A DNA stretch of 64,000 bases from Tetradesmus obliquus (taxonomy: Eukaryota; Chlorophyta; Chlorophyceae; Sphaeropleales; Scenedesmaceae), in assembly GCA_030272155.1 (NCBI GenBank), contig CP126199.1, forward strand, positions 5,382,501 through 5,446,500, given 5' to 3'. The translations under genes were made by a program, and so were the position numbers. Below, in pieces: positions 1-64,000 of the stretch. The notes beneath the pieces are model-generated. The model was given only the letters and a program-made list of their open reading frames with translations. It made no database searches and was not told the DNA's origin. The number at the start of each line of letters is the position of its first letter. Position 1 is the stretch's first letter.

Positions 1-1317
1 CCGACGCACTGTGCATTGTGTCAACGACAATCCTGCACTTCAGAAGGCGTTCCTGGTGTACTCATTGCCGTGTTGCCACCAGCTGCAATTGAGCGACAGT
101 GACAAGCTGCAGGAATAGCACCTGCCGATACCACAGCAGACATTTGCAATGGTCGCCTGATGATGTCCAAGCCTTTTTGCACAAGTACAGCATGCCAGCA
201 GATTCCGCACAGTGCTGCACTGCCATAACAAACACCCGGCCCGATCTTGGGAGTGGCAGAGGGTGGACAACTTGCGCCGACAAAACTTTGCATTTCAGAC
301 AGTGAAACTGGTTAGTGGACTTGTAAACACCCGCGCGCTCATACTCGAACACACTCGACACCAAAGCTGCTCCGCGAGGCCAAGCAAGACGCAAGCAGCC
401 ATCAGAGCAGGCAGCTGGTCAGTGCTACTAGAAACAAGCTAATCTTAGGTTATAAACATCAGGCCTTGCGCGAGGTGCTTGCGATATCATTATGCATCAG
501 GTGGGTCTGGATGTCCTGTGCAGGTCGCTAGCGGCTACTATAATTTCAAGCTTTCATGATGGCAACTATTAAGGAGTTGAGTTCTTCTCTTAGCTACTGC
601 TGGCCAGCACCATCAAACTGTACCACATCAACGCAGGCAGAAGGAATCCGCGACTCAGGCCACTGATACGTTTTACTGACGTATGTTCAGCCGTAACGGG
701 CTCTGTGGCTGGGCCTGACCTCGACAGGTGAGCTTCGACTGGCATGCAGACAGCTGCAGGGCCTGCCCGGCAAGCTACTTTCCTGCTTGCTGTGGAAGCA
801 TGATGCGTGTGTCTGAGCAGGGCATGTGGTGGCAGCATCCAGCAACAGCCCGTTTTGGGGCTGTCGTGGTCACCACCCAGTCTGCCCCGGCACAGAATGC
901 TTGCAGCAAACCGCGGGGCACCCGGCCTGTTGTCGTCGAGCAGTGTTTGTTCTCCGTTGTTTTGACCTGGGGCTTGTCCCCCGGAAGCGACCCTGTGACA
1001 TGCTGAGCAGCAGCAAACTTGCCTCAGGGCAGGTACCCGACCCTGCACCCGACCACCGCACTCACCCTCTCCGCTAACACCCTGATACTGAACACTGGCT
1101 GCAGGTTTAACATATCCAGCGTTAGCAAGGAGCAAGTGCTGCAGTGCTAGACAATCAGTGGCCGCAAGCCACTGCAGCTGCTGACAAGTCAACCGTGGAG
1201 CAGCACGCAGCGCTACTGCTTGGCCCCTGCAGGGGCTGCTGCAGCCTGCAGCAGCAGCTGTAGCTGACTGCAACAAGCAGCAGCAGCGGCAGCTAGGCAC
1301 AGCTGCAGGCGCGCAAC
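1..1317. other. 5' flank, no supported gene
   Basis: No reading frame here shows a recognisable domain or convincing coding character. The last 120 bases become rich in GCAGCAG/CTGCAG just before the ATG of the poly-Gln gene and are likely its 5' UTR or promoter-proximal sequence. A noncoding 5' exon cannot be excluded. Confidence 0.4.
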
Positions 1318-3531
1318 ATGCAGGCAGCAATTGACAGGTCGTGGCTATTCAACCAGGCAGGGGGTGGCGCACAAGACCCTGCCGCGCAAGCTGCGCAGCA
1401 GCAGCTGCAGCTGCAGCAGTTGCAGCTCCTGCAACAGCAACAGCTGCTGCAGCAGCAGGCACCGTTCTTAGCCACATCTAATGGACTCAGCGGCCTGCAG
1501 GGTGCAGGGTTCTCTGACATCCTGCCAACCCTGAACCAGAACCAGCAGCAGCTGCTGCAGCAGCAACAGCAGCAGCAGCGGCAGCAGCAGCAGCAGTTCC
1601 TGCAAGGCCCTGCTGGGATGCCCACAGCAGGCATGCTGGGGCTGGGCGGGCTGGGGATGCAGGGCGGCCTGCAGGGCGGCATTCCTGCAAGTTTGAGCTT
1701 TCCTGCAAGCGTTCCTGCAAGCATGAGCATGAGCATGCCACTGCCATACCCTCCCGCAGAACGGCAGGGCAGTTTAGTAGATCTGCTGCAGGAGATTCTT
1801 ATGGACGAAGACACAGACGGCCTGCTGCTCTCACTCACAAAGGCCGGGCAGCAGCAGCAGGCAGCAGCGCTGCAGCAGCAGCTGCTCGCGCAGCAGCAAC
1901 AACAGCAGCAGCAGGCGGCGCAGCAACAACAGCAGCTGCTGCAGCAGCAGGCGCAGCAGCAAGCTCAGCAGCAGCAGCAGATGGCTGCTTGGTTGTCAGC
2001 AGGCCAAGCAGGGGGCAGTAATGCCAGCATGGACCCTGCAGCTGCTGCTGCCACCATGGTCCCTGCAGCTGCCACTGCCTGGCCAAACTTTGCAAACAGC
2101 TCAGCAGCACGGCAAGCAGCTCAGCAGCAGCAGCAGCAGGCAGCTGATGCGGCGTCCGGGCGGCTGCAGCGGCTGCCAGACCAGCACCAGCAGCAGCAGC
2201 AGCAGCGTGATGCCGCTGGCAGCAGCAAACTGCCCTCACTGCAGCAGCAGCAGCAGCAGGATGAGGATGCTGCCGCAGAAGCAGCAGCAGAAGCGGTGCA
2301 GCGGCAGCTGGAGCAGCAGGAGTCCCAGCAGGCGGCGCGGCTGCAGCTGCTGATGCAGCAGCAGGGCCAGCTGCTGGACCAGCTGGGAGGCACTGCTGCT
2401 GCCGGCAGCAGCGGCGAGCTGGGCGGCGCTGACCTTGATCTTGATTTAGATTTGAACTTCCTGGAGAACATGCTGCAGGTGGGCGGGACTTTGACTAGAA
2501 TGCTAACTACTGCTGGCTGCAGGCCTGTATGCTGGGTGGTACAGACGTGTGGTTACAACGCAGATGGCTTTGTTGCCCCGCACGCCAGTTATTTGTGCTG
2601 CGGGGAAGCAGTGAGCGGCCAGGCCAGGCATGTGCTGCTCCTGCAACTTCCTGCAAGTGTTCCTGCAAGTGTTCTTGCAGCGGCCAGCCTGGTGTGGCAT
2701 GCTGCTGGCCTGCGCCTGCACAAACACCTACCACCAAACTTCATGTGAACCTCTGCCTGGTGTGCTGCCCTGTGCTGCTCTGCTGCTGCAGGGTGACACA
2801 AGCGGCGCCGGCGATACGCGCATGCTGGTGTCAGACATTGCGCGCATGTGCTCTATCTCAGAGCTGCCAGCGCTTCCCTCTGATGTGGGCCCGCTGCTGC
2901 TGGCACAGCAGCAGCTGCAGCAGCAGCAGCAGCAGCCGGACACGAGCCCAGACAACCCTGGCAGCGGCAACGCCAACAATGCAGGCATTGGCAATGCATT
3001 CAATGCAACTGGCGCGCCTGCTGCCGCAAACAACACAGCAGCAGCAGCAGCAAGCGCTGGCCTGGTTGGTGGAATGCGCCAGCAGAGCTTTGGTGGTGAC
3101 CTGTGGTCAGCACTGGCATCAACATCACCTACCAAGGCATCGATCAAACTGGCCGGCCAGGGCACTGCTGCTGCTGGTGAGGCTGCAGCAGGCCAAGCTC
3201 AAGGCCTGCGCAGTCCCAATGCAGCAGCAGACCTTGGCGGGCAGCAGCAGCAGCAGCAGCAGTATGCGGCAGCAGGGATGGTGCCGCTCGGCGACCAGCA
3301 GGACAGCCAGCAGCAGCTGATGGCTCAGTACGAGGCGGCTGCGGCAGCAGCAGCATCTCTGAAGCAGCGCATCAACATGCAGCAGCAGATGCAGATGCAG
3401 CGGACAGGCGCTGACGCATCTGCCAGAGGCAGCCCGACTGGCAACGCAGCAGCAGCAGCAGCAGGTGACACTGCTGGCCGGGGCGCTGACCAGCAGCAGC
3501 AGCTGCAGGGCTCGGCAGCAGCAGCAAGCCC

Positions 3532-3563
<32 letters not shown>

Positions 3564-6562: not shown

Positions 6563-6741
6563 GCGGCTGCCTGATGCAGCATCTATGCTGGTGCAGCCGC
6601 CACAGAAGCGGACACAATGGGACTGTGCAATGATGGGCCTGGGTGACGTGTCAGCTGCCTGATGCAGCATCTATGCTGGTGCAGCCGCCACAGCAGCAGA
6701 CACAATGGGACTGTGCAATGATGGGCCTGGGTGATGTGTGA
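6530..6741 (+). repeat. Tandem copies of the poly-Gln gene's last codons and 3' flank
   Basis: The sequence encoding DCAMMGLGDV plus its stop starts at 6530 and recurs at 6621 and 6709 (periods 91 and 88), with the intervening 3' flank (CTGATGCAGCATCTATGCTG) copied too. Copy 2 ends in TCA instead of a stop; copy 3 ends in TGA. The amino acids are conserved in all three. This is a terminal-exon version of the exon-edge copies seen elsewhere in the window. Confidence 0.9.
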
Positions 6742-9700
6742 TGGTTGAGCTGCCGAGCTGATGTGGCATGGCCTGAGCTTCTGGTGCTGCCGCCAGAGAG
6801 GCAGATGGAATGACGTTATGACGTTACGTTTGACGTTACTTTGGCGTGTGCCAGGGAGGTGTGGCTGGGTGCATCCCGTACAGCGCGCTTTTGAGGATGG
6901 GTGTGGTTGAGGAAGGGTGTGCGCCTGCACATGCACATGCAGTCAGATGTGTATGTGCGGATTGGTTGCATGCATTCTGGCCTCCTGCATCCCTGCTGTG
7001 CTGATCCAATGATGCTTGAAGCAACGACGCCAAATGACAGCGATCACATTGCAGTATGACCATCCACTTGGCTAGCCTTGTTTGCCATACGGCGCAGCAC
7101 TGATTCCAGCCCAACTGACCAGCCGATGTTGGTGCTGTTGATTGCAGCGGCCGCCTGTGCGCTGTTACCGGCTTTCAATGCTGCAGCTCCGTGTTGCGTA
7201 CTACCTTGTTAGCTCCTGCGCACTGTGCTATACAGCTACTGCTGCGCAGCACGCGCTAGTGTGATCGAACGTTCCACAGCACCGCTTGGCGGCTACTGCT
7301 GCTGCTGCTGCTGCAGCAGCAGTACCTTTGTATCGAGCTCTGCAGTCCGGCCGGTGTATGTATGCCGCACTAACCTAGACCAGTCACAGCACTGCATGAA
7401 CCAACTGCGAACGCTACGCACACGCGACTCGGCATGTCGCGAGGCTGGCATACGCACATTGCACTATGAGCAGCATGTGTTGGAAAGGCAGGGCACCTTG
7501 CGAGCCGCAGAGAGACTCCTGTGCAGAAGCTTGTGCTGCTGCTGTGTGCGTGTGCGTGTGCGTGTGTGGTGTGTGTGCATGGCATGGCGTGCGCCTGCTG
7601 AATACTAGCGTCTGCGCGTGCATATCTTGTGTGGCTGTCTTGCCATACGGCACCTGGCCACAACAGCAATGCATCTGATTACACAGCGCGCTGCTGCTGC
7701 TGCTGCTGCCGCAGCAGCTGCCTGTGCTGGCTGGTGTGCAGCAGTGGGGCCAAGCATTGATGTGGCGCAGCAGGGCAGTGCTTCCTGGAATGATGCTGCT
7801 GTGTTTGCAGCTGGTACAGCCACCTTGGTCTGTTGGCAGCTAGACATGCACCATTCAGAAGCATCCATAAGCTGACAACACAGCGCGCATCGCTGCCTGC
7901 CTGTGTTTCGTGCTTCACGCAGCAGTGAAACGCGCAGCTGCTGCAACTGCACTGGCTGCGGTTGCACTGCCTGGCCGCCCTTTGCGGTGCCGCTGCTGCT
8001 GCTGCTCTGCACCAGCCAGCTCAAGACAAATGTCGTGCTGCTGCTGATGTGTCATGTTGTGCGGCCAGCAGCACTGCTGGCACGCGTGCACAGAGCTGGT
8101 GCTGTTGTATGCTCTCAGTTGCGTATGTGCTTGGCTGCTGCAGCCTTCTTGTCTCGGCACTGTACAGGGCTTTTGCATTGTGTGCAAATCTAAGCATCAG
8201 CAGTATGGACAGTGAACAGCATGCTTTGAACACCTGTGACCACTGTTGCTGTGCATATTATAAGGCCGGCGCAAATTGAGGCACTGCAGGCGTCAGGCAG
8301 CACTTGCTGCTGCTGCTATGTCGCATGCATGCTGGCCTGCCTTCCTCTGCTTTTGAGCATAAGCGCCGGCCTGTCATCAGCACGATTGCACATGTGCATG
8401 ACGTGTGTGCCGGCACACATGCTATGCTTATGTGGTGGTTTGCAGCTGGCCTTGTTTTCAACGGCGGCCTGCTATCAGCTGGCGAGCAGGAGCTGCTGCA
8501 TGGTGACTAGTGATTTGCTACATCCTTTGCAGCAGGCTTCACACAGAGCTGTTCAGGGACATACAGCAGCAGTATAACAATGCCCAGGTTGAGTCACACA
8601 TAGGCCTGGCTTGACCAGCTGGCAGAAGCTTCTTCAAATGCTTGTTTGTTGCTTGTTGGCACGGACAAATGCATGTAGCAGGGGCGCTGAAGGAAGCAGC
8701 AGCCTGCTGGGATCGCTGCTTTGCAGCAGCGAGGCAATGAGCAGAGCACGTGTGCTGGTGTGGCTGTGCTTGCAATGCCGTGCTGTTGGCGGCGCGCAGG
8801 CTTGCCTGCTGCTGCTGCTGCAGTGCGGGTAGAACGCCTGCGCATATCGTCATGGCACTTGACTGCATTTGTAGCCTTCTTTGCCTTGTTACTTTATGGG
8901 ATGGCTTCACTCATACCTGACAAAGTATGCGCAGGGCGTATGGAGGGCGTTTGAATGTGCTTTGAATGCTGTCCGGTTTCAGTTGTTTTGATTCCGTTGC
9001 CGTGGGCCATGCACCAATCGTGCTGCAGCAATGGGTGAAATGGCTTAAAACTGAGGAAGTGCACCAGGGGTCAGCTTCATGCCGACACAGTAATGACTGT
9101 TAGTAACGTTATTGTAGCTTGTCAGTTGTATCAGCACTTGTTCTACCTTACGTCCCAATGCACCGACTAATGGGGGCGCTGCTGCTGGTGCACATGTGTG
9201 GCTGGCCTTACATTATGCGTTGGTGTTGCCGAGCTGCAGAGCACTGCTGCTGCTGCTGCTGCCGCTGCCGTGGCGGCACGCTGATCCAGGCACGAGCAGT
9301 TGCTGATGGGATGCATTGTCAGCAGGCAGGCGTAGCACTGTCGCAATGTGCATTGCGCAGTGCGTTGCGCGGTGCATTGTGTCGCATCAGCTTGCCAGTT
9401 CAGAAGAGGCAGCTGGCAAAGGGCAGCACTGCTTTGCAGCACCGGAGGGTTTTGGACTCGTGGGGTTTTGGCTGATCAGCTGTCACAGTTTGTCTGCAGC
9501 TGTTGCTGTGCGTTGCTGTATGCATGTGATGCGTCTGGGGTGTCTGCAGGGGCTGCAATGGGTCTTTTCTGCTGGGTTGAAGTTGGTGCAGAGTTGCCTC
9601 GCATTGCTAGTTGGGTAGAACTCTGTGATCTGGGCACACTGCTGCCTTGTTGGTTTGTTCAAATGTAGCGTTACTATGGCCAGGGGCGTTTGACTGCTGC

Positions 9701-11795: not shown

Positions 11796-14700
11796 ATGCT
11801 GGTGCGCCGAGCAATTGCATCCAGACGACGCTGTATCGCAATGTCGCAACGTGAAACCGTAGCAATGAAGAAGGTGGCAGTGATTGGAGGTGGTTTCGCA
11901 GGTGAGCGGTTCCCTTGGTTGTCGAACCTGTGAATGTGTGCTGCTGGCCTGTTTATGCGAAAGAAACGCGGCAGCTATCATGAAAGCCTGAAACGCTGAT
12001 TGATACGCAAAAGGTCACGTAACCGACACTGCTAGCACCAGGTGCTGCTGCTACTGTTGCTACTGCTGCTACTGCTCTGCGACGCTAATGAACCTTCACG
12101 AATCTTACAGTCTGATCACCATACTTTGAAGCAGTCAATGCGCAGTTTCTCAAACTCCCACACATGCCGCAAAACTACCCTGCAGGCATTGCGGCAGCAT
12201 GCACGCTGGCCCAGCAGGGCAATGGTGCAGTTGCAGTGCAGGTGTTTGAGGCCGGCCCAGTGCTAGGCGGCAGGGCCAGCAGAGGCACGGTGAGGGTTTT
12301 GTGCATACATGAGGGTTGCGGTTTTGAGGTTTGAGGTTTGGAGCAGTTGTTTGAGGCCGGCCCTGTGCTGGGAGGCAGGGCCAGCAGAGGCACGGTGAGG
12401 GTGAAATACGAATCTAAGGGTTTTTGGGTTGGGGGGGTTGGGGTTATGAGCAGCTGCTTGGGGCCGGCCCTGTGCTGGGTGGCAGGGCCAGCAGAGGCAC
12501 GGTGGGGGTTTGGTTCAGCTGTAGTTGTAAGGGTTCAGGTCCTGGTTTGATTTGTCGTTGAGCTGTGTGCTACTCTGCTGAGTTTCCTGCGGTGCTGTGT
12601 GCTGCTGCAAGTGCTGGTGCTCTGCTTGCCGAATGAGCTGCGTGCCACCTGGTTCCACGGCAGCCTCTCTTGTACAGGTGCTGTACTTATCGAAACTGTT
12701 GCTTTCTGCGCAATGTTCTGCTTGCAGCTGCCTGTGTCAGGCCTGCCAGTGAAGCTTTGTGCCATCTGCTTCACGGCACCCCCTCATGTACACATGCTGT
12801 ACTCATCCATTTCATTGCTTTCTGATACTCTTCTGCTTGCAGCTGCCGGTGTCAGGCCTGCCAGTGGAGCTGGGTGCCATCTGGTTCATGGCACCCCCTC
12901 AAGTACACATGCTGTACTCATCCACTTCATTGCTCTCTGCGCAATCTGCTGCTGCAGCTGCCGGTGTCAGGCCTGCCAGTGGAGCTTGGTGCCACCTGGT
13001 TCCACGGCACATACTCATGCTTTGTACAGTGTACACATGCTGTACTTACCCAGTCTGTTGCTTTCTAATTAGTTCCGTTTGCAGCTGCCTGTGTCAGGCC
13101 TGTTTGTTAGGCTTTGTGCCATCTGCTTCATGGCACTCTTGTACACAAGCTGTATTTGTCCAAACAGTGGTTTTCTGTGCAACCTGCTGCTACAGCTGCC
13201 GGTGTCAGGCCTGCCAGTGGAGCTTGGTGCCACCTGGTTCTACAGCACATACTCATGCCTTGTACAGTGCACACATGCTGTACTGTACTTACCCAGTGTG
13301 TTGCTTTTTCAAATTGTTGCGTTTGCAGCTGCCGGTGTCAGGCCTGCCAGTGGAGCTGGGTGCCACCTGGTTCCACGGCACCCCCTCATGTACACATGCT
13401 GTAATTAACACGTTACTCGTTACGGTGTTTTCTGCATGTTTCGCTGCTGCAGCTGCCTGTGTCAGGCCTGCCAGTGGAGCTTGGTGCCACCTGGTTCCAT
13501 GGCACCCCCTCATGTACACATGCTGTAATCAATAAGTTACTCGTTACGGTGTTTTCTGCATGTTTTGCTGCTGCAGCTGCCTGTGTCAGGCCTGCCAGTG
13601 GAGCTTGGTGCCACCTGGTTCCATGGCACGCAGCACAACCCCGTGTATGACCTGGCGGTTCAGCACGGCCTCGTAAAACCCAGCCGCAAAACTCCACAGC
13701 AGCAGCAGCAGCAGGATGGCACTGCATCGCCGGCAGCAGCAGCAGCAGCAGCGTCCACAGAAGCTGCAGACCCGAGTGTAACTGCGGCAGCAGCAGCGGC
13801 GGCAGCAGCAGATAGCACTGCTAACGCTGCCGGTGGTGGTTGTAGTGGTGATGGTGATGATGAAGATGATGGTGCACAGTGGCAGCTGCTGCTGTGTGCT
13901 CCTGGCTGTGAGGAGCCACTGTCAGGCCCCTGCAAAGCAGCTGCACTGGCAGCATTCCAGCAGTACAGTGAGGTGTTTGCAGGTGTAGAGGAGGCAGCAG
14001 CAGCAGCAGAGAATAGCATAGGCACAGTTGCTGAAGATGCGCAGCAGCAGCAGCAGCAGCAGCAGTGCTGTGAGGGTGTTGCAGGTGCAGCCTGCCGCAG
14101 CAGCAGTAGCAGCACTTTGGGGTGGCATTTGAGGGGCAGGTATGACCAGATCATGCAACAGCAGCAGCAGCACCAGACGGAGCACAGCAATGAGGCAAGT
14201 GAAGCTGCAGGTGCAGCAGTGCAGACAGCGCAGCAGGTGTCAGCCTGGCTGGCATCTGATACAGCTGGCGGCGGTTTAAGGAGCGCATTTGTGCAGGGCT
14301 GGGCTTGCAGGTGAGGTTTAGGGCTTTACGGTGGTAGGGTTTTGCTGATCTATAAGTGGAGCACTTGATGCTTGATTGTTCATTGCCTGTGCTGTCGCCT
14401 TGCATATGCTGCTGCTTGTTGAATGGTGTCAGGCCACCTTCAGCAGCTGGAGAGGCGTCTGTTACAAGCACACCTGCAATACTGCATGTTGGTTTGGGAA
14501 GTCGCTCCACTGTCACAGTCATGCGCTTGGCACATCTTTGACTCCACTGGCTACCTGACACGCTTTTGTTACACTTCACATGCAATGCATTGCATAGGGA
14601 GCACCTGCAGTGTGCATATGACGGCTCCTGCACAGCAGCTCACCTGTGTATTTCTTGTGATCAAACGCCTGCTCCATCAGTAGCATGCTGTGCTGCATCG

Positions 14701-15347: not shown

Positions 15348-15385
<38 letters not shown>

Positions 15386-15688
15386 CCAAGCAGTGCCCAG
15401 CAGCGCGGGGAGCAATGCATCTGCCACTCAGGGCGGTCGTCCTGCTGCTGCTAATACTGCTGCAGCCGCTCCTGCAGTGGTGGGTCCCAGGAAGCCTAAA
15501 ACCCAGCTGCATGACTTCTCCATTGAAGTGCCAGCAGTGGGACCTGCAGCAGTGACAGAGGGCGGCCCTGCTGCTGCTGCTGCTGCTGCCAAGCAGCAGG
15601 AGGATGAGGCAAGCAGCAGCAACAGCTTCACTACGTACTGCTTGCTGTGGCCCAGCCATGAGGAACTGTGGGGCCGGCAGTGGCTAGC

Positions 15689-15721
<33 letters not shown>

Positions 15722-15849: not shown

Positions 15850-15890
<41 letters not shown>

Positions 15891-15988: not shown

Positions 15989-16023
<35 letters not shown>

Positions 16024-36021: not shown

Positions 36022-36083
36022 GTGTGCAACGTGGCGGCGGTGCTCATCTTTGCGATCAACAGCTGGGTGTACAGGATCGAGTG
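36022..36083 (+). repeat. 3'-edge copy of the channel's terminal exon
   Basis: After the stop at 35963, 36022-36083 repeats the sequence encoding NVAAVLIFAINSWVYRIE plus TGA, with synonymous or conservative changes (GTGCTC for ATCCTC; ATC for ATT). Confidence 0.93.
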
Positions 36084-39596: not shown

Positions 39597-42500
39597 CCCC
39601 CAGGCCATCAAGACGGTGCTGTACCCCAAGGCGCCGCTGCTGGACGCCACCACTGGCCGGCTAACCACGCCCTGCGTGAAGGCGCTGCTGCGCATCTTCC
39701 TCATGTGCGACAGCGACGGGGTGAGCACGGCTGTACCGGTATCTTACATTAACCGAAGAGCTCTGCTGCTGCTGCTGCTGCTGTAGCTGTGTGTGTGCAT
39801 CTGCCTTGCCTTGTTGCAGCGACGGGGTGAGCACTGCGCTACTGACTCAGCATCTGGGGGCTGCTGCTGCTGCTGCAACACAATTGTGACTGCATTATAA
39901 AACGGCGCGCTGAACAACGAGGAGCGCAACAGCTTCTAATACTTGTGCTGAGCCCATGTATGTCTGAAACCTAAACCTAAAATCTGCTTGCAAATACCAA
40001 CACCACAGTTGCTGTGTGCAACAGCGACGGGGTGAGTGAGTGCTGCACTCTTGCGTCTACCGTGCTGGATGATGCACAGGGCTCTGCTGCTGTAGACGCA
40101 TGGGGCCTTGATCGCCACACCAATTGACTGTCGCACATATCCTGCATAAGGCAGCCGCGCCATCCGTTAATTCAATTGCAGATGCACCGCACGTGTGCAC
40201 CTGCACCCCAAGACCGATCAACCCTGCTTGCTTGCAAGACACAAAGCACAAACATCATGAACACCTGAACCTCAAGAACCATTTCAAACGCAGGATGGCG
40301 CGCTAAGCAATCAAGGGCTCAGCAACTTTGTAAACCCTAACTCCGCTGCGTTGCGCATCCTTTTGCACCACCAACCTGAAACCTGCCTGCAAAACCAAAC
40401 CCAAACCACATCTGACCAACCGCAGGATGGCGCGCTGAACGATGAGGAGCTCAACACCTTCCAGTTCCTGTGCTTTGGGCAGCCCTTAACGCCCGATGAG
40501 CTGGCCAGCGTGCGCCAGATGGTGGCGGAGCGCATGGCTGACGGGCTGTCTGATGCTGGGCTGCTGTTCCCTGGCTTCATGTACCTGCACACACTGTTCC
40601 TGACACGGGGGCGGCTGGAGAGCACCTGGACGGTGCTGCGGCTGTTTGGTGAGTGGGTGGGTAGCAGCAGCAATGGTGGTAGCTCTCTACATTGCTGTAC
40701 AGCAGTGGACATGTGCAGCAGCAGCAGCAGCAGTGTGGACTCAAGTGGTGCACCCGTTGTGCTAATCAATGCACTCTGCTGCACTGCTGCTCTGCCTTTG
40801 CTGTCCACCTGCAGGATACAACGAGCAGCTGCGGATATCAGACTCCGTGCTAGACCGCCTGCCGCGGCCGCCCGGCAGCAGCAGCAGCAGCAGCAGCGAC
40901 CCCAGCAGCAGCAGCGATGGCAGCAGCAGCAGCAGCAGCAGCAGCAGTGTGCTGGAGCTGTCGGAGCAGGCGCTGCTGTACCTGGGCCATGTGTTTGACA
41001 TCTATGACAGCAGCCGCAGCGGCGTGCTGTCGCCTATGGACCTGGAGCACATGTTCAACAGAGCACCAGTGCCCATCTACCAGGTGCGTAGTTGTGTGCA
41101 TCTGATGTGGCGATGTATTGCTGATACCTGGAGCACATGTGTGACTGGCCAGTGCCGTCCACCAGGTGGGTGATGCATGCAGTTGTGTGGCTTCAAGTGT
41201 GCATTTGACGTGGTGATAAACTGCTAATGGACCTGGAGCATGTTCAACAGAGCACCAGTGCCCATCTACCAGGTGGGTGGGATGAGGCGCCTGTGGACAT
41301 ATGTGTGTTGAGCCTGCCTGTGTATAGCAAACAGCACACAGTGTGGCTACAAGACCGCCTCAAGTGTTTGCGTATGGCTGCTGCTGCTGCTGCTGCCTCT
41401 TGACTGCTGCTGCTGCTGCAGGTGGAGGCCTGGAACCGTGTGATTGTGGCTGGCGCCGGCAGCAGCAGCAGCAGCGGCAGCAGCAGCGGCGGGCTCACCA
41501 AGGAGGGCTTCCTCACGCGCTGGAAGGTCATCACGCTGCAGGACCCCCGCACCGCGTTCGAGCAGGCAAGCACGCAGCATTGCAGCATTGGGTAGAACTT
41601 GACCATATGTCAGTCGCAGGCGTGCTGGGGTGTGCAGTGTGTGCATGCTTGTGGCGGTCAAGTGCTGCAGTTGACAGCAAACATCCACCTTGTACTGTGT
41701 AACCCACAGCAATTGCTGCACTAATGTGGCGTTACCACACTGTTTTCCACGCTGTTTTCCTTGGAGGGCTGAGGGCACTCGCAGAAGATGCTGTAGGCTT
41801 TGCCGCCAGCACACACAGCCATCTCGCTACTGCTGCGCCTCATCACTTTGCTGCTGCTGCTGCTGCTGACATCTGCAGATGCTGTACCTGGGCATGGGCG
41901 GGCGCTGCGGTGAAGACGCTGGCCGGCTGTTTGTGGTCAAGCCGCGCCGGCGCAAGCCTGAGCGGCGCAAGGGCGCCCTTGGGCTGGGTGACAGGGGCAC
42001 GCTGGTGGCTGGGCTGTTTGGCGGGCTGGGGGTGGGCAAGAGCAGCCTGGTCAAGGTATGGTCAAACGGCTGGCGCTTGTGTTCTTTGATCATTCGTGTA
42101 GTGGTGCTTGGAAGTGCGCTGTTTGGCGGGCTGGGGTTGGGCAAGAGCAGCCTGGTCAAGGTGGGTGCGGCAAGACAGCTGGCTGCTGCTGCCCCTTGTT
42201 GCGGATTGTGTGTGATATCTGTGCACGCTGGTGGCTGGGCTGTTTGGCGGGCTGTGGGTGGGCAAGAGCAGCCTGGTCAAGGTGCGGCTGGTGCTGATGA
42301 CATAGCGATTTCCTTTGTATGTAAGCATTCAAGCGAAGTACTTGACAAACAAATGCAATTTGAATTGGGCAGTGGACACGAAGGCTGGCTGTTGGGTCAT
42401 CAGGTCACTGAAGTCAACCAGGTCACTCAAAACACCTAAGCTGTTTCGCTTGCTGGGCATGGGCAAGAGCAGCCTGCTTGTCCAAGGTGCGCGCAGCGCA

Positions 42501-42675
42501 ATGAGAAGCAATTGTAATGCTGGTGGACTGCTGTAGTACCAGCGTGCTTGGCTGTTGGGGCGTGTCACGCTAGCTGTACACTAGCCATAAACAGCATCTC
42601 GGCGTGTGTGCCAACTCGTCATCAACTCTGTGACTGTGCGCTGCACTGTGCAGAACCTGTGCTGCGTGTGGGTGA

Positions 42676-42712
<37 letters not shown>

Positions 42713-42781
42713 GCAGGCGCTGGCTGGGCGGCACTACAACGAGCCGCTGCACTGTGCTGAACCTGCGCTGCGTGTGGGTGA

Positions 42782-42824: not shown

Positions 42825-45223
42825 GCAGGCGCTGGCTGGGCGGCACTACAACGAGCCGCTGCATGGGCTGCTCACTGCTGCGGGCAGCACCAGCAGCCTG
42901 GTGGAAGGCGCTCCCAGGACACTCGTCATCCACGAGGTGGGTTACTGCTGGCAGCTAGTTACACCAGGTTACATTGGGTGACAAGTATGAGTGACGGACT
43001 GCTGCCTGCAGCACCAGCAGCCTGGTGGAAGGCGCTCCCAGGACACTTGTCATCCATGAGGTGGGTTACGGCTGGCAGCTACTAGCTGTAACTAGTAGTT
43101 ACACCAGGCCGCGGTGCTGTTTGACAGTGACTGAACCACCTGCTGCTGCTTGCTGCCACAAATATATTGTTCCCTGCAACTCGCAGGCCAGCAGCGCGGC
43201 AACAGCAGACGACCCCACAGTTGACCTGTCGCAGCTGGACGTAGCCGCGGTGCTGTTTGACAGTGCTGAGCCTGCCAGCTTCAGGCAGGCCGCCAGCTGC
43301 TGCCTCAACCCTAAGCCCAGCCACCCGCTAAACCCTTCTCACACTCTCCAATACTTTGCAAGCCATGATCCCTATAGGTAGTCCTTGCAGGCACGTGCTC
43401 AGCGACCCTGCTGCTGCCTGCTGTATCACTCCTTCCATACCGCAGGCCAGCAGCGCGGCAACAGCAGACGACCCCACAGTCGACCTGTCGCAGCTGGATG
43501 TAGCCGCTGTGCTGTTTGACAGTGCGGAGCCGGCCAGCTTCAGGCAGGCCGCCTGCTGCTCCCTCAACCCTAAACCCAGCAACCCACTGACCTCCCACAC
43601 ACTCTTCAGAACCTCTGCAAACCCTGACCCCTACATGTAGCAATCGCACGCACCTGCTCACTGACCCTGCTGTATCACTTTCTGAACCTTGATTGCAGGC
43701 CAGCAGCGCGGCAACAGCAGACGACCCCACAGTCGATTTATCCCAGCTGGATGTAGCCGCGGTGCTGTTTGGCACTGACTGAGCCGGCCAGCTGCAGGCA
43801 GGCCGCCTGCTGTTGCCTCAACCCTCAGCCCAGCCACCCACTTACCTCCCACACACTCTTCAGAACCTCTGCAAACCCTGACCCATACATGTAGCAATCG
43901 CACGCACCTGCTCACTGACCCTGCTGTATCACTTTCTGAATCATAATTGCAGGCCAGCAGTGCGGCAACAGCAGACGACCCCACAGTCGACTTGTCGCGG
44001 CTGGACGTTGCGGCCGTCCTGTTTGACAGTGCGGAGCCGGCCAGCTGCAGGCAGGCCGTCTGCTGCTGCCCCAGCCCGGGCCCGAGCCACCCATTCACCT
44101 CTCACGCATCATCCAAAACCCTACAAACCTTGACCCCCTACATGTGATGCTTCCACACACCTGCTCACCCACCGCTCCCTGAATCCTGGTTGCAGGCCAG
44201 CAGCGCGGCAACAGCAGACGACCCCACAGTCGACCTGTCGCAGCTGGACGTAGCCGCGGTGCTGTTTGACAGTGCTGAGCCTGCCAGCTTCAGGCAGGCG
44301 GTGGCGCTGGTCACGGGGCTGAGCGGGCGCGCCGGCGACAGCCTGCCTTTTGTGCTGATCGCAGCAAAGGACGACCTGGGCATGTCAAACGTGAGTGGTC
44401 TGCTTTTGTTGTTGGATGTGTTGCAGCGTGCACCAGGGTGGTTGTATGGGTTCGTGACAGCCTGCCCGTTTGTGCTCATTGCCGCAAAGGATTAAGTTGG
44501 CACACATGTCAAACATGAGTGCTGTTCCTTTGGGTCAAGTTCATGCTGTGTTTTGTGATGTCTCAGTTGCTTCAGCTGCTGCCGTTCCACTGCGTAGTAC
44601 ATTTAGGGGCATATATTCAACACGGGTATTCATGATGCTGGTGACAATGGTGATGACGGTGTTTCCATGCATGCCTGAACCCTGCAGGAGCTTGAGGCAG
44701 AGGTGCATGCATTCTGTTACCTGGCACTGTGTATGTTCTACATGATCTGAATATGTTAACCAGCAACACACTGCATGGATGTGTCTGTGTCCTGCAGGAG
44801 CTTGAGGCAGAGGTGCATGCACGTATTCTGTTACCTGGTATTCTGCATGTGAAATCATGATATGAATGTTAAAAATCAACCAGCAACACACTGCTTGGTT
44901 GTCTCTGTGTCCTGCAGGAGCTTGAGGCAGAGGTGCATGCAGCCTGCAAAGACCTGGCACTGCCGCTACCAATCCCAGTGTCAGTGCTTCTGGGCAGCCT
45001 CGGCCATCATCCAGTGCCAGACGCGGCAGCAGCAGCGGCAGCAGCAGCAGCAGCAGCCGGCGGCGGCCCTGCGGCAGCAGCTGCCGGCGGCGGCAGGAGC
45101 GCCGCGGCAGCGGCAGCAGCAGCAGCAAGGGCTGGCGGCAGCAATGTGTTTGTGGCGCTGCTGCTGGCTGCGATGCACCCGGAGGGAAATGTTCCTGACA
45201 CGCCTGCACGCAAGGTGCGCTGC

Positions 45224-45589: not shown

Positions 45590-45695
45590 ATGCTGCCAGC
45601 TTGTACGCTGGCTGGCTGATGACTGTGCACAGGTCGCTGCAGGGGTTTGGCGGCAGCAGCAGCAGCAGCAGCAAGCTGCTGGGCGGGAAGTAGAG
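45590..45695 (+). repeat. 3'-edge copy of the Miro terminal exon
   Basis: Right after the stop, this block repeats the tail anchor and C-terminus region (CCAGCTTGTACGCTGGCTGG, GTACAGGTCGCTGCA-like, an AGC run, then GGGAAGTAG). Confidence 0.88.
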
Positions 45696-49246: not shown

Positions 49247-50037
49247 AGGCAAGCACGAGTTCCTGGTTGCCAGCACGCACCCTGACAGCTTCCTGGCACT
49301 GGGCGGCAGCCGCAGCCTCAGCAGCAGGGCCAAGCGCCAGTGCAGGGCCTTCAGGCGCATACAGGTGGGGATGCTGACCGGCAGCAGCAGCAGCAGTGTG
49401 ATGAGATGGACTTATGATCAATCTGCATGCCATGCAGCATGCTTGTTTGGAGCGTTTGGTTGAGTGTTACAACTGGCCTGCAGCTGCTGCTGGCGCTGCC
49501 CTGCTGCAAGCTGCTGTGTTTGGATGTGGGGTGTGCGTGCTCTCCACATCACCGCTCTCATCGCTCTCCTCCAAACCAACAGCTGCAAGGAGCATCCCAG
49601 CATGCCCATGGTATCTGCCTCTGGTTTAAGCTGCCGCCACGGACCCTGCTGCTGCTGCTGCTGCTGCTGCATTGTGAGGTAGTCGGCATGCCGCATTGCC
49701 AGGGTGATGAAGACAGCACCTGGCTGGTGCTGGCCACCCTGCTTTGTAACACACCAGCTGCAAACAGCACAACTGCTGGCGGTGTGCTTGTCATCTATCT
49801 GTCTGCTGCTGCTGCTGCTGCTGCAGTGTGAGGTTGTGGGCATGGCGCACTGCCCTGGTGATGATGCCGGCACCTGGCTGGTGCTGGCCATCCTGCAAGG
49901 CACAGCTGAAGGTGACTTCAAAGGCGTGAAAACTCCTTACATGGAGCTCATTGCACGCAAGAGCTGGCGCGAGCAGCAGCAGCAGCAGCAGCAGCAGCCG
50001 GGGTTTATGGAGGCTGCAGCACCTGACAGAGGTGATG

Positions 50038-57057: not shown

Positions 57058-59957
57058 CTACAGTGGGCCATTCACGGCGGCAGCCCCCAAGGAGAAGGTG
57101 GCTCCAGCGAGCACGTTGCTGCTACTAGCAGTAGTACTGCCTAGCCAGCACCCAGCTACTGCCCAGCCCCCTCTTTCTCCTTCTTCCACTTCTTGCAGTC
57201 TGCTCTGTGCTGCTTCCAGTGGTCCTCCTGGCAGCTCCTGCTGCAATCCACAGCCTTGGAGCAGCTGCTGCACTTGCTGAGCGACACCCCTGAGCCTTAA
57301 CCAGCACCGCAGCTCCAGCACAGCTGGCCGCGCCTGCTGCTGCTGCTCCTGCTGTTGCCACCAGTGCCGCTGCCTCCTGCAGCTGCTGCCTCCTGCAGCT
57401 GCTGCTGCTGGCAGCTGTGGCTGCTGCACTGCTGCTGCTGATGTGCTTGGCGCACTGGCAGCTTGCGCTGCTGCTGCGGGCTGCTGCTGCTGCTGCGCTG
57501 CTGCCTGGCCCTTCTTCTTGGCTCCCTTGCTGCTGCTGTCGACTGCGCGCACCACGTACTTGTGCAGCTTTGACCAAGGCGAGCCAGGGCCAGCATGCCT
57601 GGCAGCGTCTGCGGCAGCGCCATGCAGCATGGCAGGGCAGCACACAGTACTGTGAGAATATAAGTTCATAGTTTCTTTGACACCTGTCCACACCTGCCAA
57701 TGTGCCTCCTTGTCAATGCCTGTCACTGTTCTGTACATATTGTTGTACATCAACATGTTTGCACAGCCCGTCGCATCCTCCATGGCCCTAATAACATGGT
57801 CTTGCTCAGCTTGGTGATGCCCGCCTTTTGCCAGCAGCAACCCACCATCATGACATCACCATCGTGTTATTTTGCATTGGATTGCCTGTGACAGCTGTCC
57901 TAACCTTCCATCACCTCCAGCACGGTTCTGCTGAGCTTGGTGGTGCCTGCCTCTGCCAGCAGCACATCCACAATCATGTCACTTTTCATGTTATTTTGCG
58001 TTTCTTGTGACAGCTGTCCTCACTTTCCATCACCTCCAGCACGGTCCTGCTGAGCTAAGTAATGCCTGCCTCGCCAGCAGCACATCAACAGACTTGTTGT
58101 TTCCTATGTTACTTTTGTGTTTGAAATGTGCGCAGCTGTCCTCACCTTCCAGCACCTCCAGCACGGTCCTGCTGAGCTTGGTGAGCCCCGCCTCTGCCAG
58201 CAGCATATCAACAAACTTGTTACTTCCAATGGTACTTTTGTGTTTGAAATTTGCACAGCTGCCCTCACCTTCCATCACCTAGAGATTGTGTGGCAGTTGG
58301 GGTCAGGTACTCGCCATACCTGCGGGTAATTACCCTCTTATAAGAGCGGCGGTATGCAGGGTGTGTGCAGGTTGTGTGGCAGTTGGGGCCATACTGTAGC
58401 ATCTTGTCGTAGGCAGCAAGTGACTCCTCGTACCTGCGGGGAGGACATGTAGGAAATGCGGGCTAACGCGGGAAATGCGAGAATTGCAAGAACATGGGGG
58501 CACATGCGGGAAATGCGGGAATTGCAGGCAAATGCAGGTATTGCGGGAAACATTAAACGGGGGGAAATGCCAGGCAACGCGGCCAAACACGGGAAAAGCG
58601 GGCAAACGCAGGAAATGCTGGAAACCCCGGAAATAATTGGGAACTCAGGCACACCCGGGCATACCCGGGCATTGGCGAGAATGCTTGCGAATGCGGGCAA
58701 TCGCGGGCGAATGCGGGCAATCGCGGGCGAATACGGGCAACACGGGCAAACGCGGGCAATTGCGGGCAAATGCAGGAAATGCAGGCAACTGCGGGAAATG
58801 TGAGAAATCAAAGAATGCGGGAATTCTTGGGAAGTCAAGCAGACCCAGGCAATCTCGGGCAAGTGCGGGAAATGCGGGAAAATGCGGGAAATGTGGGAAA
58901 TGAAAGAATGCGGGAATATATGTGGACTCAGGCAAACCCAGGCAATCCTCGGCAAGTGCGAAAAATGCGGGCAAATGCGGGCAAATGCGGGCAACACGGG
59001 CAAATGCGGGAAATCAAAGAATGCGGGAATATATGGGGCCTTGGGCAAACCCGGGCAATCCTGGGCAAGTGCGGGAAATGGGGGCAAATGCGGGCAATGC
59101 GGGCAACAAGTGAACAAGCGGGCGATGCGGGCAATTGCGGGCAAATGCAGGAAATGCAGGAAAAATCAAAGAAAATCAAAGAATGTGGGGATATATGGGG
59201 ACTCAGGCAATCCCGGGCAATCCCGGGCAAGTGCGCGCAACGCGGGCAAATGCGGGCAATCGCGGGCAAATGCTGGAAATCCGGGCAAATGCGGCAAATG
59301 CGGCAAATGTGGGAAATCAGAGAATGCGGGAGCATATGGGACTCAGGCAAACCCGGGCAATCCTCGACAAGTGCGCGAAATGCGGGCAAATGCGGGCAAT
59401 CTTGGGCAATGCTGTCAAATGCGGCAATTGCGGGAAATGCGGGAAATCAAAGAATGCGGGAGTATATGGGGACTCGGGCAATCCCGGGACCGTGGGTACA
59501 GCCTGTCACAGGTTATCCGCACATTCAAACTGCTGCACCAATGCCACCAGAGCACAGCGCTGCCGACGCAACACAAGCAGCTGCCTTATCACACCATCTG
59601 CCCACACTCACTCTGCCACTGCCCTGGCGGCTGCTCAAACTTGAGGGGCACCACAGGCGAAGTCGTCGTCAGCACTGCGCCGCCTCCAGCCAAGCTTCCA
59701 AACGGCCCCGATAGCTGCCAACCTGCATCCTCCCGATACTTCCTGCTGCACCCCTGATGCGCGCTGCTGCTGCTGCTGCTGCCGGGGCGTGAGGACGATG
59801 CAGCGGCTCCTGCAAAGTCGCCTGTGCCGGCTACAGGCACGCCTCGAGCCTGCAGGCCTGCCATGAGCTGAGCCATGAGCTCAGGTGATATGCCCATGCC
59901 TCCAAATTGAGGAAGCATGGTAGCTGCTGCTCCTGCTGCTGTACGCTGTTGATGCAC
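57058..59957 (-). CDS. Poorly resolved gene with a TPR-like exon
   Basis: Three candidate coding pieces lie on the minus strand. (1) 59957-59612 starts MHQQRTAAGAAATMLPQFGG, has a Met/Gly/Ser-rich body and ends at a strong GTGAGT donor in phase 1. (2) About 58437-58338 follows CCCGCAG and encodes YEESLAAYDKMLQYGPNCH, which looks like a TPR helix pair. (3) 57840-57058 encodes MEDATGCANMLMYNNMYRTV and, after Ala/Gln tracts, a Leu/Gln-rich helix (VAQQVQQLLQGCGLQQEL), ending at the stop at 57058. I could not connect the pieces in frame; exons hidden in the repeats are likely missing. A ~120-bp tandem array and a 1-kb minisatellite occupy the gaps. They may belong to two genes. Confidence 0.38.
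57780..58285 (-). repeat. ~120-bp tandem array carrying an exon edge
   Basis: Four units with landmarks at 57903, 58021, 58145 and 58268. On the minus strand most units read AAGTTTGTTGATATGCTGCT-like sequence, then CACCAAGCTCAGCAGGACCG and TGCTGGAGGTGCTGGAAG, then GTGAGGACAGCTG. The unit thus has an acceptor-like GCAG, an exon-like stretch (TKLSRTVLEVLEG) and a GTGAGG donor. The lowest-coordinate, diverged copy runs into the open frame ending at 57058. Confidence 0.85.
58447..59495. repeat. GCGGGCAAAT minisatellite, ~1.05 kb
   Basis: About 100 degenerate units of 9-10 bp (GCGGGCAAT, GCGGGAAAT, GCAGGAAAT). A higher-order unit of about 110-150 bp carrying AATCAAAGAATGCGGGAATA, then ATGGGGACTCAGGCAAACCC, occurs about six times. 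The 9-10 bp units leave frames open by chance. Confidence 0.93.
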
Positions 59958-60624: not shown

Positions 60625-62147
60625 TCACCCTCCACCCAACTGCTGCTGCTGCTGCTGCCCTTCCTGCTGCTGCTGCTGCTGCTTCTGCAGCACCAGATTC
60701 AGCACCACATTGAACACTTCCACGCCTACCATAGCATTGGGATGGATCAAGTCAGTCAAGTGCTGCTGCCCCGTGGCGAAGCGCTGCCCGATCGCAGCGT
60801 AGTCCACCAGCTGCAGCCCCAGCCGCCGCGCTGCTGCTGCCGCTGCTGCATTCAGCTGGTGGATGAAGTAGAGCCGTCCCAGGTAGGGCTTGGTCATGAG
60901 GCCCGTGGCCACGTCGTGGTGAGGCGGCAGCGTGGTGTGCGTCAGCCACAGCTTGGTCTGCAGGAGCGTGCAGCAGCAGCAAACACAGAAAATGAGTTGG
61001 AACTGGTGTGCACAAGCAGCTGTGACACAGCAAACACTTGGTGGGACTGTGCGATGCAAGCAGCTCACTGGCGGCTGTCACTGCAGCACAATACGCATAT
61101 ATAGATTTCATTCAAAGGACATTCTGCTCCATGGTCCCAGACCTGCCCAGCAAATACTACTCGCCCCACACCACAACCAAATTTCCAAGCGCTGGCTCCA
61201 CACCACCAGCACCATCATGCAACCGCTGCTCGCCCGACTCCTGCAGCATACCACTGCAGCATACAACAAACATCAGCCACAGCTGATACAACCTACCATC
61301 CCCACCCACTGCTCAACAGCACTCCCCATCCTCACTGTTGGAAACGCCTGCTGCGCATACCGCACCACCGCCGTGAAGTTCGCCACCCACTCCTGCAGCA
61401 GCTCCCAGCTGACTTCCTGCAAGCCCTCCAGCCGCACTCCAAACTGCCCTCACTACCATCACCACAGCACCCCCAAGCCCTGCATGTATCAACCCAACAC
61501 CAGCACTCCCCCACTCCCACCCTCACCTGCGGAAACGCCTGCTGCGCGTACCGCACCACTTCAGTAAAGTTCGCCACCCACTCCTGCAGTAGCGCCACAT
61601 CCAGCTCCTGCAAGCCCTCCAGCCTGCCCCGCTCATGCATGCTCAGCCGCGCCACGTCCCACAGCAGCGAAGCCACAGACACAGCCTGCGGCGCACTGCC
61701 GGGCCCTTCCCCCGCATACTCGGCCCACATCTGTGCTGCGGAATCGATGCGCTGACGGAAGTCCTGCGCGCTGAACCTGTGGAAGGGGCCAGTGGGGTGC
61801 ACCCCAGGGAAGTAGCTGCTGGCCAGTTTCAATGGAGCAGACGACTCGCAGGTGTGAAATGCATACGCGGTCTTGTTCAGCAGACTGGGAGCGCCTGCGC
61901 CCGCTTCTGCTGCGGTTTGTGGTGGGGGTGTGGCTGCTGTGCTGCCAGCTGCTGCGGCTGCTGCTGCTGCAGCAGCCTCTTCAGCGGCTTCTGCTGCTGG
62001 TGTGGATTTCATCATGTGCGTCTGCTTCACGCCGCCCAGGGCTTCGCACACATGCTGCACAATGTAGCGGTCCACTGAGTCAGACAGCAGCAGCACACGC
62101 ACAGGCGGAGCCTGGGCCTGCGCTGAGGCAGCCGTGCTTTCCTGCAA

Positions 62148-62186
<39 letters not shown>

Positions 62187-62939
62187 ACTGCTGCTGGCAG
62201 CTGCTGGGGCACCAGCAGCAGCATAGCGCTGCGACAGCCTCTCGATGCTGCTGCTGCTGCTGCTGCTGCTGGACTCGCTGCTGCTAGTCTGCTGCAGCCC
62301 AACTCCAACACCGCTACTGCTTCCTATGCTGCTGCTGCTGTTGCTGCTGTGTTGACCTGCAGCAGCCTCATACACTGCCAGCCAGTTGGTGAGCTGGCAG
62401 TCTGCATCCAGCAGCTGCCACCTGCTGCCCGCTGGGGCACTGGACACCCAGGTTCCGGGCAGGGACCCATACGGACAGCGCACAGTCAAGGTGCTGCTGC
62501 TGCTGCTACTGCTACTGCTACTGCTGCTAGTGCTGCTGTCAGTGTTCTGATACAGTAATGTGTCTTCGCCAGTATCTTGTCCAAGCCCTTCTGTGCTGCT
62601 GCTGGTGCCCGGTTCCAGCCATACTGGCTGTGCTGTGTCCTGGCTTCTGCTTGCAAGAATATCAGTACTGCTGGTGCTGCTGCTGACGTTGTGAGTTCCA
62701 TGGCTGTGCCTTCCAAGAAAGTACACCAGGACTAGAACCAGCAGCGCATACAGCACCACAATAGCTGGCTTTGAGCCACTTAACTGCCCTAGCAGCTGCC
62801 GCCTATCATCCAGCAGCTTGAGTTGCTGCTGTTGTGGCCGCTCGTGTATTGGCAGCAGCAGAGCACCCTCCGGGTGTGACTGGCGCTCCTTCTTCTGCTG
62901 CTGAGGCTGCGGGTCATGTTGCTGGCTGAGCGGGTGCAT
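60625..62939 (-). CDS. Type II membrane SGNH/PC-esterase-like protein
   Basis: Two exons, 62939-61527 and 60957-60625, join in phase 0 to about 581 residues. A cytosolic N-terminus rich in Gln and charged residues is followed by one membrane helix (residues 59-75, AIVVLYALLVLVLVYFLG) and a lumenal Ser-rich stem, the layout of Golgi glycan-modifying enzymes. RCPYGSLPGTWVSS and RWQLLDADCQLTNWL resemble the region before the catalytic core of PC-esterase/TBL-type proteins. VRVLLLSDSVDRYIVQHVCE holds the GDSL-like block with the likely nucleophile Ser, and DLIHPNAMVGVEVFN in exon 2 provides the D-x-x-H. An esterase or O-acyltransferase acting on glycans is inferred; the substrate is unknown. Long Ser and Ala tracts enlarge the stem and the region after the nucleophile. 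The ATG at 62939 is the first in frame. Confidence 0.82.
61335..61445 (-). repeat. 3'-edge copy of SGNH gene exon 1
   Basis: About 105 bases repeat the end of exon 1 (LEGLQELDVALLQEWVANFT...YAQQAFPQ) with substitutions and end in TTTCCAACA|GTGAGG, equivalent to the real CAG|GTGAGG at 61526. It lies about 190 bp downstream in the intron. Confidence 0.92.
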
Positions 62940-64000
62940 GGGGGTCTGCTGCGGCTGCTGAACTGCCGTCAGGGCAAAACCAGACACATGTCAGACTCCC
63001 CAAGCGCTGTGTGCAGCTTCCTGCAGCTCAGCCTGTCGGTTCACTGGTCGCTGCTGCTGGGAGCTGCAGCTGCTGCCGGTGTGTTGCCCGGATTGCCGCC
63101 CAGCAGTAGCTAGTTCTCTGGTGCTGTTGTAATACTGACACTGATGGTAATTGACGGAAGGCCTGGAGCAGAGGCTGTCCCGGCGAATTGGCTCACACCG
63201 GACGCGGGTACGAAGGTGGCAACCGAGCCACTAATGTGGTGACTGTAACGTAGTTTTGTAAGATAAACCAAGAGCAACTTGCATCAAAGTCTGATTGATT
63301 GCACAGGTTCACTCGGCTGCAAGAAGTAATCACTCAGAACTGCTGCGGTTTGTGACGAGTGATAACCAACGAGTTTACTTCAAAACGTTTGTCTGCAAGC
63401 GTATGAAAGGTGCACCAGTGTAACAGCGTGAGCTTACTCACATTTTGAACCCCAACCACCTATCACAAGTTCTGTTACTTGCTGTGTGCACCTCTGCTCA
63501 AGTACAGGCTGGTATCAGGCAGAATCCTGATGTTACGACCTGGTACAAGCGCTTTTGGTGTTTGCACACAACATGCCTGGTGCAGCCTGAATAGATGCGC
63601 CAATCTCACCACTCAGGCCAGCTGTCTCCCACTGCTGACGTGCCACACAGCTTGCTGCCCTGCAAGCCACGGTACCTTCTGCTGCTGGGCCTTCCAGCAC
63701 TGATCCTGCTGCTGCTGAGCAACCCACCGCTGCTGTTCGCTGCGTCAAGGTGACACAAATACTCGTGCTGCTGTACTGCGCTGTAGCATGCACTGTGCCA
63801 CAGCATCTAGCCTGCACCCGCTGAAAGGCAGAGCAGCAAGCCATCAATCAACAGCCAGCCTATACAGGTAGCTGTGAAGCACATGTCATGGCTGTCATGT
63901 TTATGATGCAGCTGAAGCAGCCACAGGGTAGAACTGAAGCCATGCAGGATTTGTTTCATCAAGGCACAGCATATGTTGTGTGTACTGCTTCTGCCTACAT
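62940..64000. other. 3' edge of window, no supported gene
   Basis: Upstream of the minus-strand SGNH gene. The first 100 bases are probably its 5' UTR. Beyond that no frame has a recognisable domain, and 63180-63480 is AT-richer and repeat-free. A gene starting past the window cannot be judged. Confidence 0.4.

Follow-up and report, generated by a model that had tools for sequence, protein, structure and literature searches.

A 64-kb stretch of the Tetradesmus obliquus genome (G000:C9:5382501-5446500, G+C content about 59%; called the window below, in its whole length) raises the question of how introns come to hold tandem partial copies of the edges of neighbouring exons, and how splicing copes with them. 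The initial annotation of the window had described such copies, those upstream of an exon keeping its acceptor splice site and those downstream its donor, and had proposed repeated short tandem duplication with one breakpoint in the exon and one in the intron. The partial copies of exon edges in the introns of T. obliquus are confirmed here as real. The best account, to which a probability of roughly 0.6 is given, is that short tandem duplications straddling a coding edge are filtered for an intact full exon, by which introns would grow.

The genome comprises 104.66 Mb in 17 contigs. The main data set consisted of the window and four 50-kb blocks (B1-B4), 264 kb in all; the blocks were blind, that is, set at round coordinates with their contents unseen beforehand. 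A later blind block (C5) was fetched once the first counts were known; the settings of the gene finder were frozen for it and the thresholds left unchanged, and it gave 4 gene models with 39 exons. Gene models came from a gene finder of our own, trained on the same DNA, with fixed splice tables and CAG runs masked; its first version, with self-retrained splice sites, was discarded for drifting into CTGCAG repeats (1070 introns). Runs of the CAG/CTG type are very dense throughout the window, both in exons (poly-Gln, Ala, Ser and Leu) and in introns, and disturb gene finding and self-alignment. With models scoring below 60 dropped, as well as 9 of 35 that overlapped a better model, the main set held 26 models and 248 exons. 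Exons of at least 40 nt were compared with the DNA within 2 kb, and a match had to cover at least 20 exon bases. Of the 835 matches, 438 were left out for a repeat content of at least 30%.

Acceptor-edge copies in introns of the main set were found upstream of their exon in 44 cases and downstream in 2, and donor-edge copies downstream in 34 and upstream in 3, which places 78 of the 83 intronic direct edge matches on the predicted side. The later block gave 17:3 for acceptor copies and 18:0 for donor copies (35 of 38). The pattern of edge copies described in the initial annotation thus holds; its "always" for position becomes "mostly", since 5 of 83 and 3 of 38 edge matches are on the opposite side, a few of which may stem from faulty gene models. 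The copies were also said to be always direct; the inverted control has no edge matches in the main set and 4 in the later block. Matches to exon middles, the class that the initial annotation had singled out for comparison, are not as common as edge matches: the 21 intronic direct middle matches of the main set stand against 20 in the inverted control, which puts them at background, and the later block had 6 direct and 27 inverted ones. No whole-exon match was found in the introns of the main set or the later block, as had been claimed. On predicted exons there were 15 whole-exon matches in the main set, 14 of them in one donor array modelled as exons, and 7 in the later block.

Comparison of the window with itself, after removal of 58 of 120 matches as rich in CAG-type repeats, left 62 matches, of which 60 are local (<3 kb), 59 direct and 1 inverted; one direct and one inverted match are distant. 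Nine of the 59 lie in a short-repeat stretch at 58.4-59.6 kb, unrelated to exons. Over the window and the four blind blocks of the main set, local matches are direct in 142 cases and inverted in 6. With all classes counted, intronic direct matches occur for 15 of the 26 models and for 50 of the 248 exons. Edge copies number 40 in the window, 24 in B1, 3 in B2, 0 in B3, 11 in B4 and 35 in C5. The earlier figure of about 50 copies in at least eight genes is a fair one, as the 40 in the window fall in 6 models and further loci were found by self-match or by eye only. Scaled up to the genome, the 73 copies in the 250 kb of the five blind blocks would amount to about 30,000, a figure with a very wide error because the blocks range from 0 to 35.

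An artefact of assembly or gene models is hardly credible as the source of these counts. The gene finder is a simple one, trained on the DNA that it annotated, and some copies were first called as exons; measured against a Miro protein deposited for T. obliquus, it failed to predict the first exon (37947-38348) and began one exon too early, the remaining exons being confirmed. Support for the models from Pfam, PDB (human Miro1) and the deposited protein is partial; among 20 single open frames scanned with Pfam, 5, belonging to 3 genes, had a family above its cut-off. The copies, however, differ from one another at scattered bases and over a range of divergences, which agrees with the earlier statement that they are of different ages, and edge copies occur in four of the five blind blocks, on other contigs. 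Two cases also rest on known or deposited proteins. The exons of the Miro-like gene match UniRef A0A383VCR8 (Tetradesmus obliquus) nearly residue for residue, and the identity was also obtained from human Miro1 in PDB with a query stripped of the copied peptides beforehand. Part of the peptide copied before exon 44201-44390 is present twice in a row in A0A383VCR8 and only once in the proteins from Scenedesmus sp. NREL 46B-D3, P0003 and Raphidocelis; the extra peptide probably entered the protein model when a gene caller included a decoy. The second case, on another contig, is a D1 protease gene with 236 of 238 residues identical to PDB chain 1fc7 (photosystem II D1 protease), whose source we take to be Scenedesmus obliquus. 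An acceptor copy of the exon starting near L023:895 lies in the intron upstream of it, at L023:758-851; it is 80% alike, with four amino-acid-changing and three silent differences as read off the printed sequence. The copied stretch occurs once in the crystallised chain. By these two proteins, the DNA comes from T. obliquus or from a strain very close to it. Both proteins fit the status of decoys that the copies had been given, as does the lack of opposite splice sites described below.

The copies are built from units of a narrow size range. The nearest copy is one unit away and lies at 91-191 bases in 39 of 45 cases; the 43 nearest copies within 300 bases have a median distance of 125, acceptor and donor alike. 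The exon part of the unit has a median of 46 (acceptor) and 50.5 (donor) bases and the intron part of 74 and 91. The intron left in between is at least 40 (acceptor) and 48 (donor) bases long, apart from a donor edge of the later block with 31. Of 59 primary periods, most are 90-200 and none is below 60, matches under 40 bases being undetectable. A copy mostly retains its own splice site (AG in 39 of 43, GT in 26 of 32), and the decoy is at least as strong as the real site in 16 of 39 acceptors and 13 of 26 donors; the score table is shared with the gene finder, which favours the real sites as a yardstick but leaves comparisons with random intron unaffected. None of 44 acceptor copies has a partner donor near its end above the median predicted donor (2% in random intron), and a partner acceptor near the start was found for 12% of 34 donor copies against 18% in random intron. 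Since the opposite site is absent and the outermost site adjoins the complete exon, the site used would be the outermost one, as exon definition would choose, if the models are right. Copies after last exons include the stop codon, as first described (Table 1), and because such edges are copied too, the boundary that matters is that between coding and non-coding sequence rather than the splice site.

Introns with a copy have a median length of 533 nt and those without 255 nt (33 and 189 introns), and the medians for 1, 2, 3 and 4 or more copies are 463, 511, 598 and 1275 nt (n = 14, 10, 5 and 4). A mean intron length of 462 in T. obliquus, against 230-302 in four other green algae, is given in a passage of PMC5966456. 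The proposed growth of introns fits these lengths, but long introns also give more room for copies. That introns are "built from" copies was too strong a wording, as 33 of 222 introns hold a copy and the aligned copy pieces make up 5.1% of intron bases. Three arrays of the window, compared with the whole genome in a search that skips common words, gave 6, 5 and 1 matches, all within the array itself; the arrays at 12600-13505 and 43183-44059 are among those without a match elsewhere.

These properties can be put together as follows. Short tandem duplications, with a unit mostly of 90-200 bases, would be frequent in T. obliquus. Where one end of the unit is coding and the other lies in the adjoining intron or 3' untranslated region, the gene would keep one full exon together with its stop codon or its outermost splice site, which is the last of the acceptors or the first of the donors, and a spare half-exon would be left in non-coding DNA, with a near-normal splice site and no partner across the exon. 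The splicing machinery would pass over the half-exon, probably by exon definition, and the copies would be tolerated, form rows, decay and lengthen the intron. The duplication model of the initial annotation is borne out in that the copies are direct and local, with one breakpoint in coding sequence and one outside it and the full exon intact; duplication and survival by themselves leave the excess of edge units over intron-only units, the centring on the edge and an amino-acid-sparing bias unexplained.

Several results weigh against duplication followed by such a filter as the complete explanation. The models of B3 gave no edge copies. Differences between copies and exons fall on the three codon positions as 74/71/219 in the main set (rates being taken from the 78 copies on the predicted side, with wrong-side and middle matches excluded) and as 40/725, 32/722 and 119/720 in the later block. 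For 45 edges the ratio of divergence at third positions to that at first and second positions (p3/p12) is 3.6 (2.6-5.2), and that of first and second positions to intron (p12/intron) is 0.24 (0.17-0.31); neutral copies simulated under equal detection gave 1.4-1.9 and 0.55-0.70. Private changes per site are 0.034-0.061 in the exon parts of copies against 0.152 in their flanks, which are partly force-aligned, and gaps number 16 in exon parts and 245 in flanks, detection favouring gap-free exon parts. Global alignment makes the flank unlike that of the parent in 34 of 78 copies. The young clusters, those with a likeness of at least 84% (n = 29), comprise 21 across an edge, of which three end 2-4 bases beyond the donor, 3 intron-only and 5 other. 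Random placement gives 0.165 for edges and 0.535 for introns, so that about 24% edge would be expected in place of the 21 against 3; clusters of all ages (n = 45) comprise 28 edge, 6 intron-only and 11 other, with about 35% edge expected. The units are also centred on the edge, the exon share being at most 0.64 at 21 acceptor edges and at most 0.55 at 22 donor edges, where about 0.9 is allowed.

The amino-acid-sparing differences could mean that the copies are functional, as small alternative or poison exons or through selection for coding sense. Synonymous differences outnumber nonsynonymous ones 177:89 (a share of 0.67, with 0.28 expected), and the few gaps in exon parts and the copied peptide in the deposited protein model point the same way. 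This explanation is nevertheless very improbable. Partner splice sites are not above background, the distances from copy to exon modulo 3 (31/22/25 of 78) show no clear bias to multiples of three, some copies carry frameshifts and one a stop, and the second peptide is lacking in the three related algal proteins. Changes private to copies show no clear codon bias (29/36/53 by position, ratio 1.6, 0.95-2.7), as in a neutral copy.

A different origin of the bias is that the copies were born by unequal exchange between diverged haplotypes, or shuffled within arrays by exchange with the exon. Copy and exon would then both have been coding for part of the time, the differences present at birth would spare amino acids, the intron flanks would be left unlike each other, and neutral decay would follow. 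This would yield the p3/p12 of 3.6 together with a p3/intron of 0.85, the latter as neutral sites give. It would also account for the private changes, polarised in 20 arrays with at least two copies, which are 18 silent to 1 not in exons and 46:66 in copies. The Miro copy at 43183, the farthest from exon 44201-44390 and with a different flank, is nevertheless 99% like it, as exchange would allow. PMC7955037 describes a relative, NREL 46B-D3, as likely to be diploid and its haplotypes as lying on separate contigs. Exchange between haplotypes would, on the other hand, require an allelic synonymous divergence of about 10% by our estimate, and exchange inside arrays is less likely at single-copy edges, which share the bias (13, 11, 55 and 6, 5, 25 by codon position). 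As a full explanation it is unlikely, though the most serious of the competing ones; some exchange between copies and exon has perhaps taken place.

Three other candidates were set aside. Hypermutable CpG at third positions gives just 1.09 against 1.03-1.04, and on theoretical grounds the third-position ratio cannot be raised by two-way gene conversion between the exon and a single copy. A division into two classes of copies, suggested by the global flank alignment, was dropped since local alignment finds at least 30 alignable intron bases in 62 of 78 copies. We read the copies as decaying roughly neutrally by codon position, and their common ancestor with the exon would predate their life as copies.

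The excess and centring at edges could also reflect a mutational hot spot, with duplication drawn to the coding/non-coding boundary, for example by breaks, nicks or replication trouble at exon ends. The ratio of edge to intron-only clusters and the centring are alike for acceptors and donors, none of 20000 random draws for each edge type was as tightly centred as observed, and the unit lengths, mostly 90-200 among the 59 periods, span a narrow range. The later block has an exon share reaching 0.72 (80/111). Stop-codon edges are copied too, so splicing signals are unnecessary; at acceptors, some of the centring could come from a filter that preserves space for a branch point and a pyrimidine tract. 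Intron-only pairs fade faster and are under-counted, by a factor judged to be about two and not ten, and the gene models are our own. A hot spot is a rather improbable explanation on its own. The edge excess and the amino-acid-sparing bias, which go beyond random duplication and survival, may hint at how the duplications arise. At the acceptor-edge copy of Miro exon 42829-42936, a 7-base word is repeated at the breakpoints (42639-42870; a single case, seen by eye).

A wider version of duplication across the coding edge is possible but doubtful: boundary-centred duplication would target coding edges, copies would still exchange with the exon, and the genome would hold tens of thousands of half-exons, by extrapolation, with the outermost site chosen by exon definition.

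The loci of the window are listed in Table 1. The channel-like gene shows a weak likeness to Cys-loop channels, under the Pfam cut-offs.

Table 1. Edge copies and associated exons in the window, by position. Loci marked "not in 78" are outside the 78 copies used for rates.
Position	Strand	Feature	Basis
6620..6805	+	Two donor-edge copies, exon of Gln-rich gene ending at 6558	Edge-match count
12135..12289	+	Exon of amine-oxidase gene with downstream donor-edge copies; exon start uncertain	Pfam PF01593/PF13450, gene model
12343..12517	+	Two donor-edge copies (12343-12402, 12450-12517) of exon 12135-12289	Edge-match count
12600..13505	+	Eight acceptor-edge copies of exon 13577-14310, successive spacing 111-133	Edge-match count, alignment
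13577..14310	+	Parent exon of the eight-copy acceptor array	Pfam PF01593, gene model
14596..14626	+	Acceptor-edge copy of exon 14747-16745	Edge-match count
22887..23063	-	Donor-edge repeats of exon 23132-23827; not in 78	Self-match/eye
24715..25146	-	Donor-edge copies (25073-25146, 24715-24752) of exon 25263-25379	Edge-match count
30472..30509	+	Acceptor-edge copy of exon 30611-30748, channel-like gene	Edge-match count
30868..30915	+	Donor-edge copy of exon 30611-30748, differing from it at two third positions	Edge-match count
31502..31695	+	Two acceptor-edge copies of exon 31736-31896	Edge-match count
32031..32147	+	Donor-edge copy of exon 31736-31896	Edge-match count
33109..33339	+	Two donor-edge copies of exon 32874-33015	Edge-match count
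36023..36091	+	Stop-codon-edge copy of last exon 35792-35963	Edge-match count
39112..39143	+	Miro: donor-edge copy of exon 38946-39038	Edge-match count
40285..40328	+	Miro: acceptor-edge copy of exon 40426-40648; second match 39904-39949	Edge-match count
41227..41278	+	Miro: donor-edge copy of exon 40815-41083, 2-base deletion	Edge-match count
42115..42283	+	Miro: two donor-edge copies of exon 41879-42055; remnant 42440-42476 scored as middle	Edge-match count
42663..42759	+	Miro: acceptor-edge copy of exon 42829-42936	Edge-match count
42998..43081	+	Miro: donor-edge copy of exon 42829-42936	Edge-match count
43183..44059	+	Miro: four acceptor-edge copies of exon 44201-44390, unit about 254	Edge-match count, alignment
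44456..44532	+	Miro: donor-edge copy of exon 44201-44390	Edge-match count
44681..44821	+	Miro: two acceptor-edge copies of exon 44918-45214	Edge-match count
45592..45693	+	Miro: copies of the end of last exon 45418-45588, including the stop codon; not in 78	Self-match/eye
49649..49742	+	Likely acceptor-edge copy, exon starting near 49827; weak gene model; not in 78	Self-match
57795..58280	-	Exon-like piece in about three head-to-tail copies (unit 119-126), outside any confident gene model; not in 78	Self-match
61320..61433	-	Donor-edge copy of exon 61527-62939	Edge-match count

Other repeats were found beside these loci. The channel-like gene has two exon-sized stretches, 28053-28159 and 29051-29157, that are 71.6% alike and perhaps derive from an older duplication of the gene start. 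An intronic 38-base unit at 30918-31035 is repeated 3.1 times with no differences, each unit with GTGAGT and GCAG. The stretch 58690-59488 (about 0.8 kb) is made up of short, degenerate repeats around GCGGGCAAATGCGGG; the higher-order units measure 93-162 bases, and there is no sign of exon origin. B3 (G000:C3:5.00-5.05 Mb) has 22 distant direct matches within its 50 kb, and its repeat make-up differs. A ClpP-like gene in B1 (G000:C1, about 1,019,320-1,019,859, identified by eye) has a donor array with a unit of 118 and four extra copies about 97-98% alike, left uncounted as the array copies were modelled as exons; two third-position differences set the exon and the first copy apart from the remaining copies.

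In these arrays nature has duplicated splice sites repeatedly and at different times, and real and decoy sites are similar in motif strength, have nearly identical exon flanks and differ in the partner across the exon. With RNA, they would make exon versus intron definition directly testable in an alga and are a candidate source of the long introns of T. obliquus. They are also a warning that gene callers may put decoys into proteins, as in UniRef A0A383VCR8, and the annotation of the species may hold more.

Rows of half-exon copies were not found in any report among the listed titles and abstract beginnings, which cover the subscription literature thinly. Tandem exon duplication, including that giving mutually exclusive exons, copies whole exons with both splice sites; it shares with the present case the tandem copies of exon sequence inside a gene, but no whole exons were found in introns here. 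Introners are alike across unrelated introns and carry splice signals. The copies resemble them as repeated intronic sequence with splice signals, but the three searched arrays match their own place only. The tandem genomic duplication of AGGT, as described in the parts of PMC3443670 consulted, is likewise tandem and local, and splicing likewise keeps it out of the protein; there an exonic unit supplies both sites of a new intron, whereas the units here include intron and an existing splice site and, to judge by the DNA, create no new intron. The short tandem duplications from break or nick repair in PMC8355091 are short, local, direct and head to tail, as here, and are a likely source of the events; a gathering at exon edges is not mentioned in the passages covered, unlike the present case. 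The initial annotation knew of no described system of this form, and one precedent does exist. In the potato RdRp gene, according to the sections of PMC4974935 seen, a tandem duplication across one intron-exon boundary was followed by formation of a new intron from a cryptic donor. The unit spans one boundary, head to tail, as do the copies here with their expected sides, and in both it is the parental structure that provides the 3' splice site with its pyrimidine tract and branch site. The potato case concerns one gene and a new intron, whereas in T. obliquus many genes and both edge types are involved, no partner site was found, and the old intron appears to grow. To judge by the listed titles and abstracts, the novelty would lie in the scale, in the strict order kept at acceptor and donor edges alike, in the missing partner sites, in the excess and centring at edges and in the amino-acid-sparing bias.

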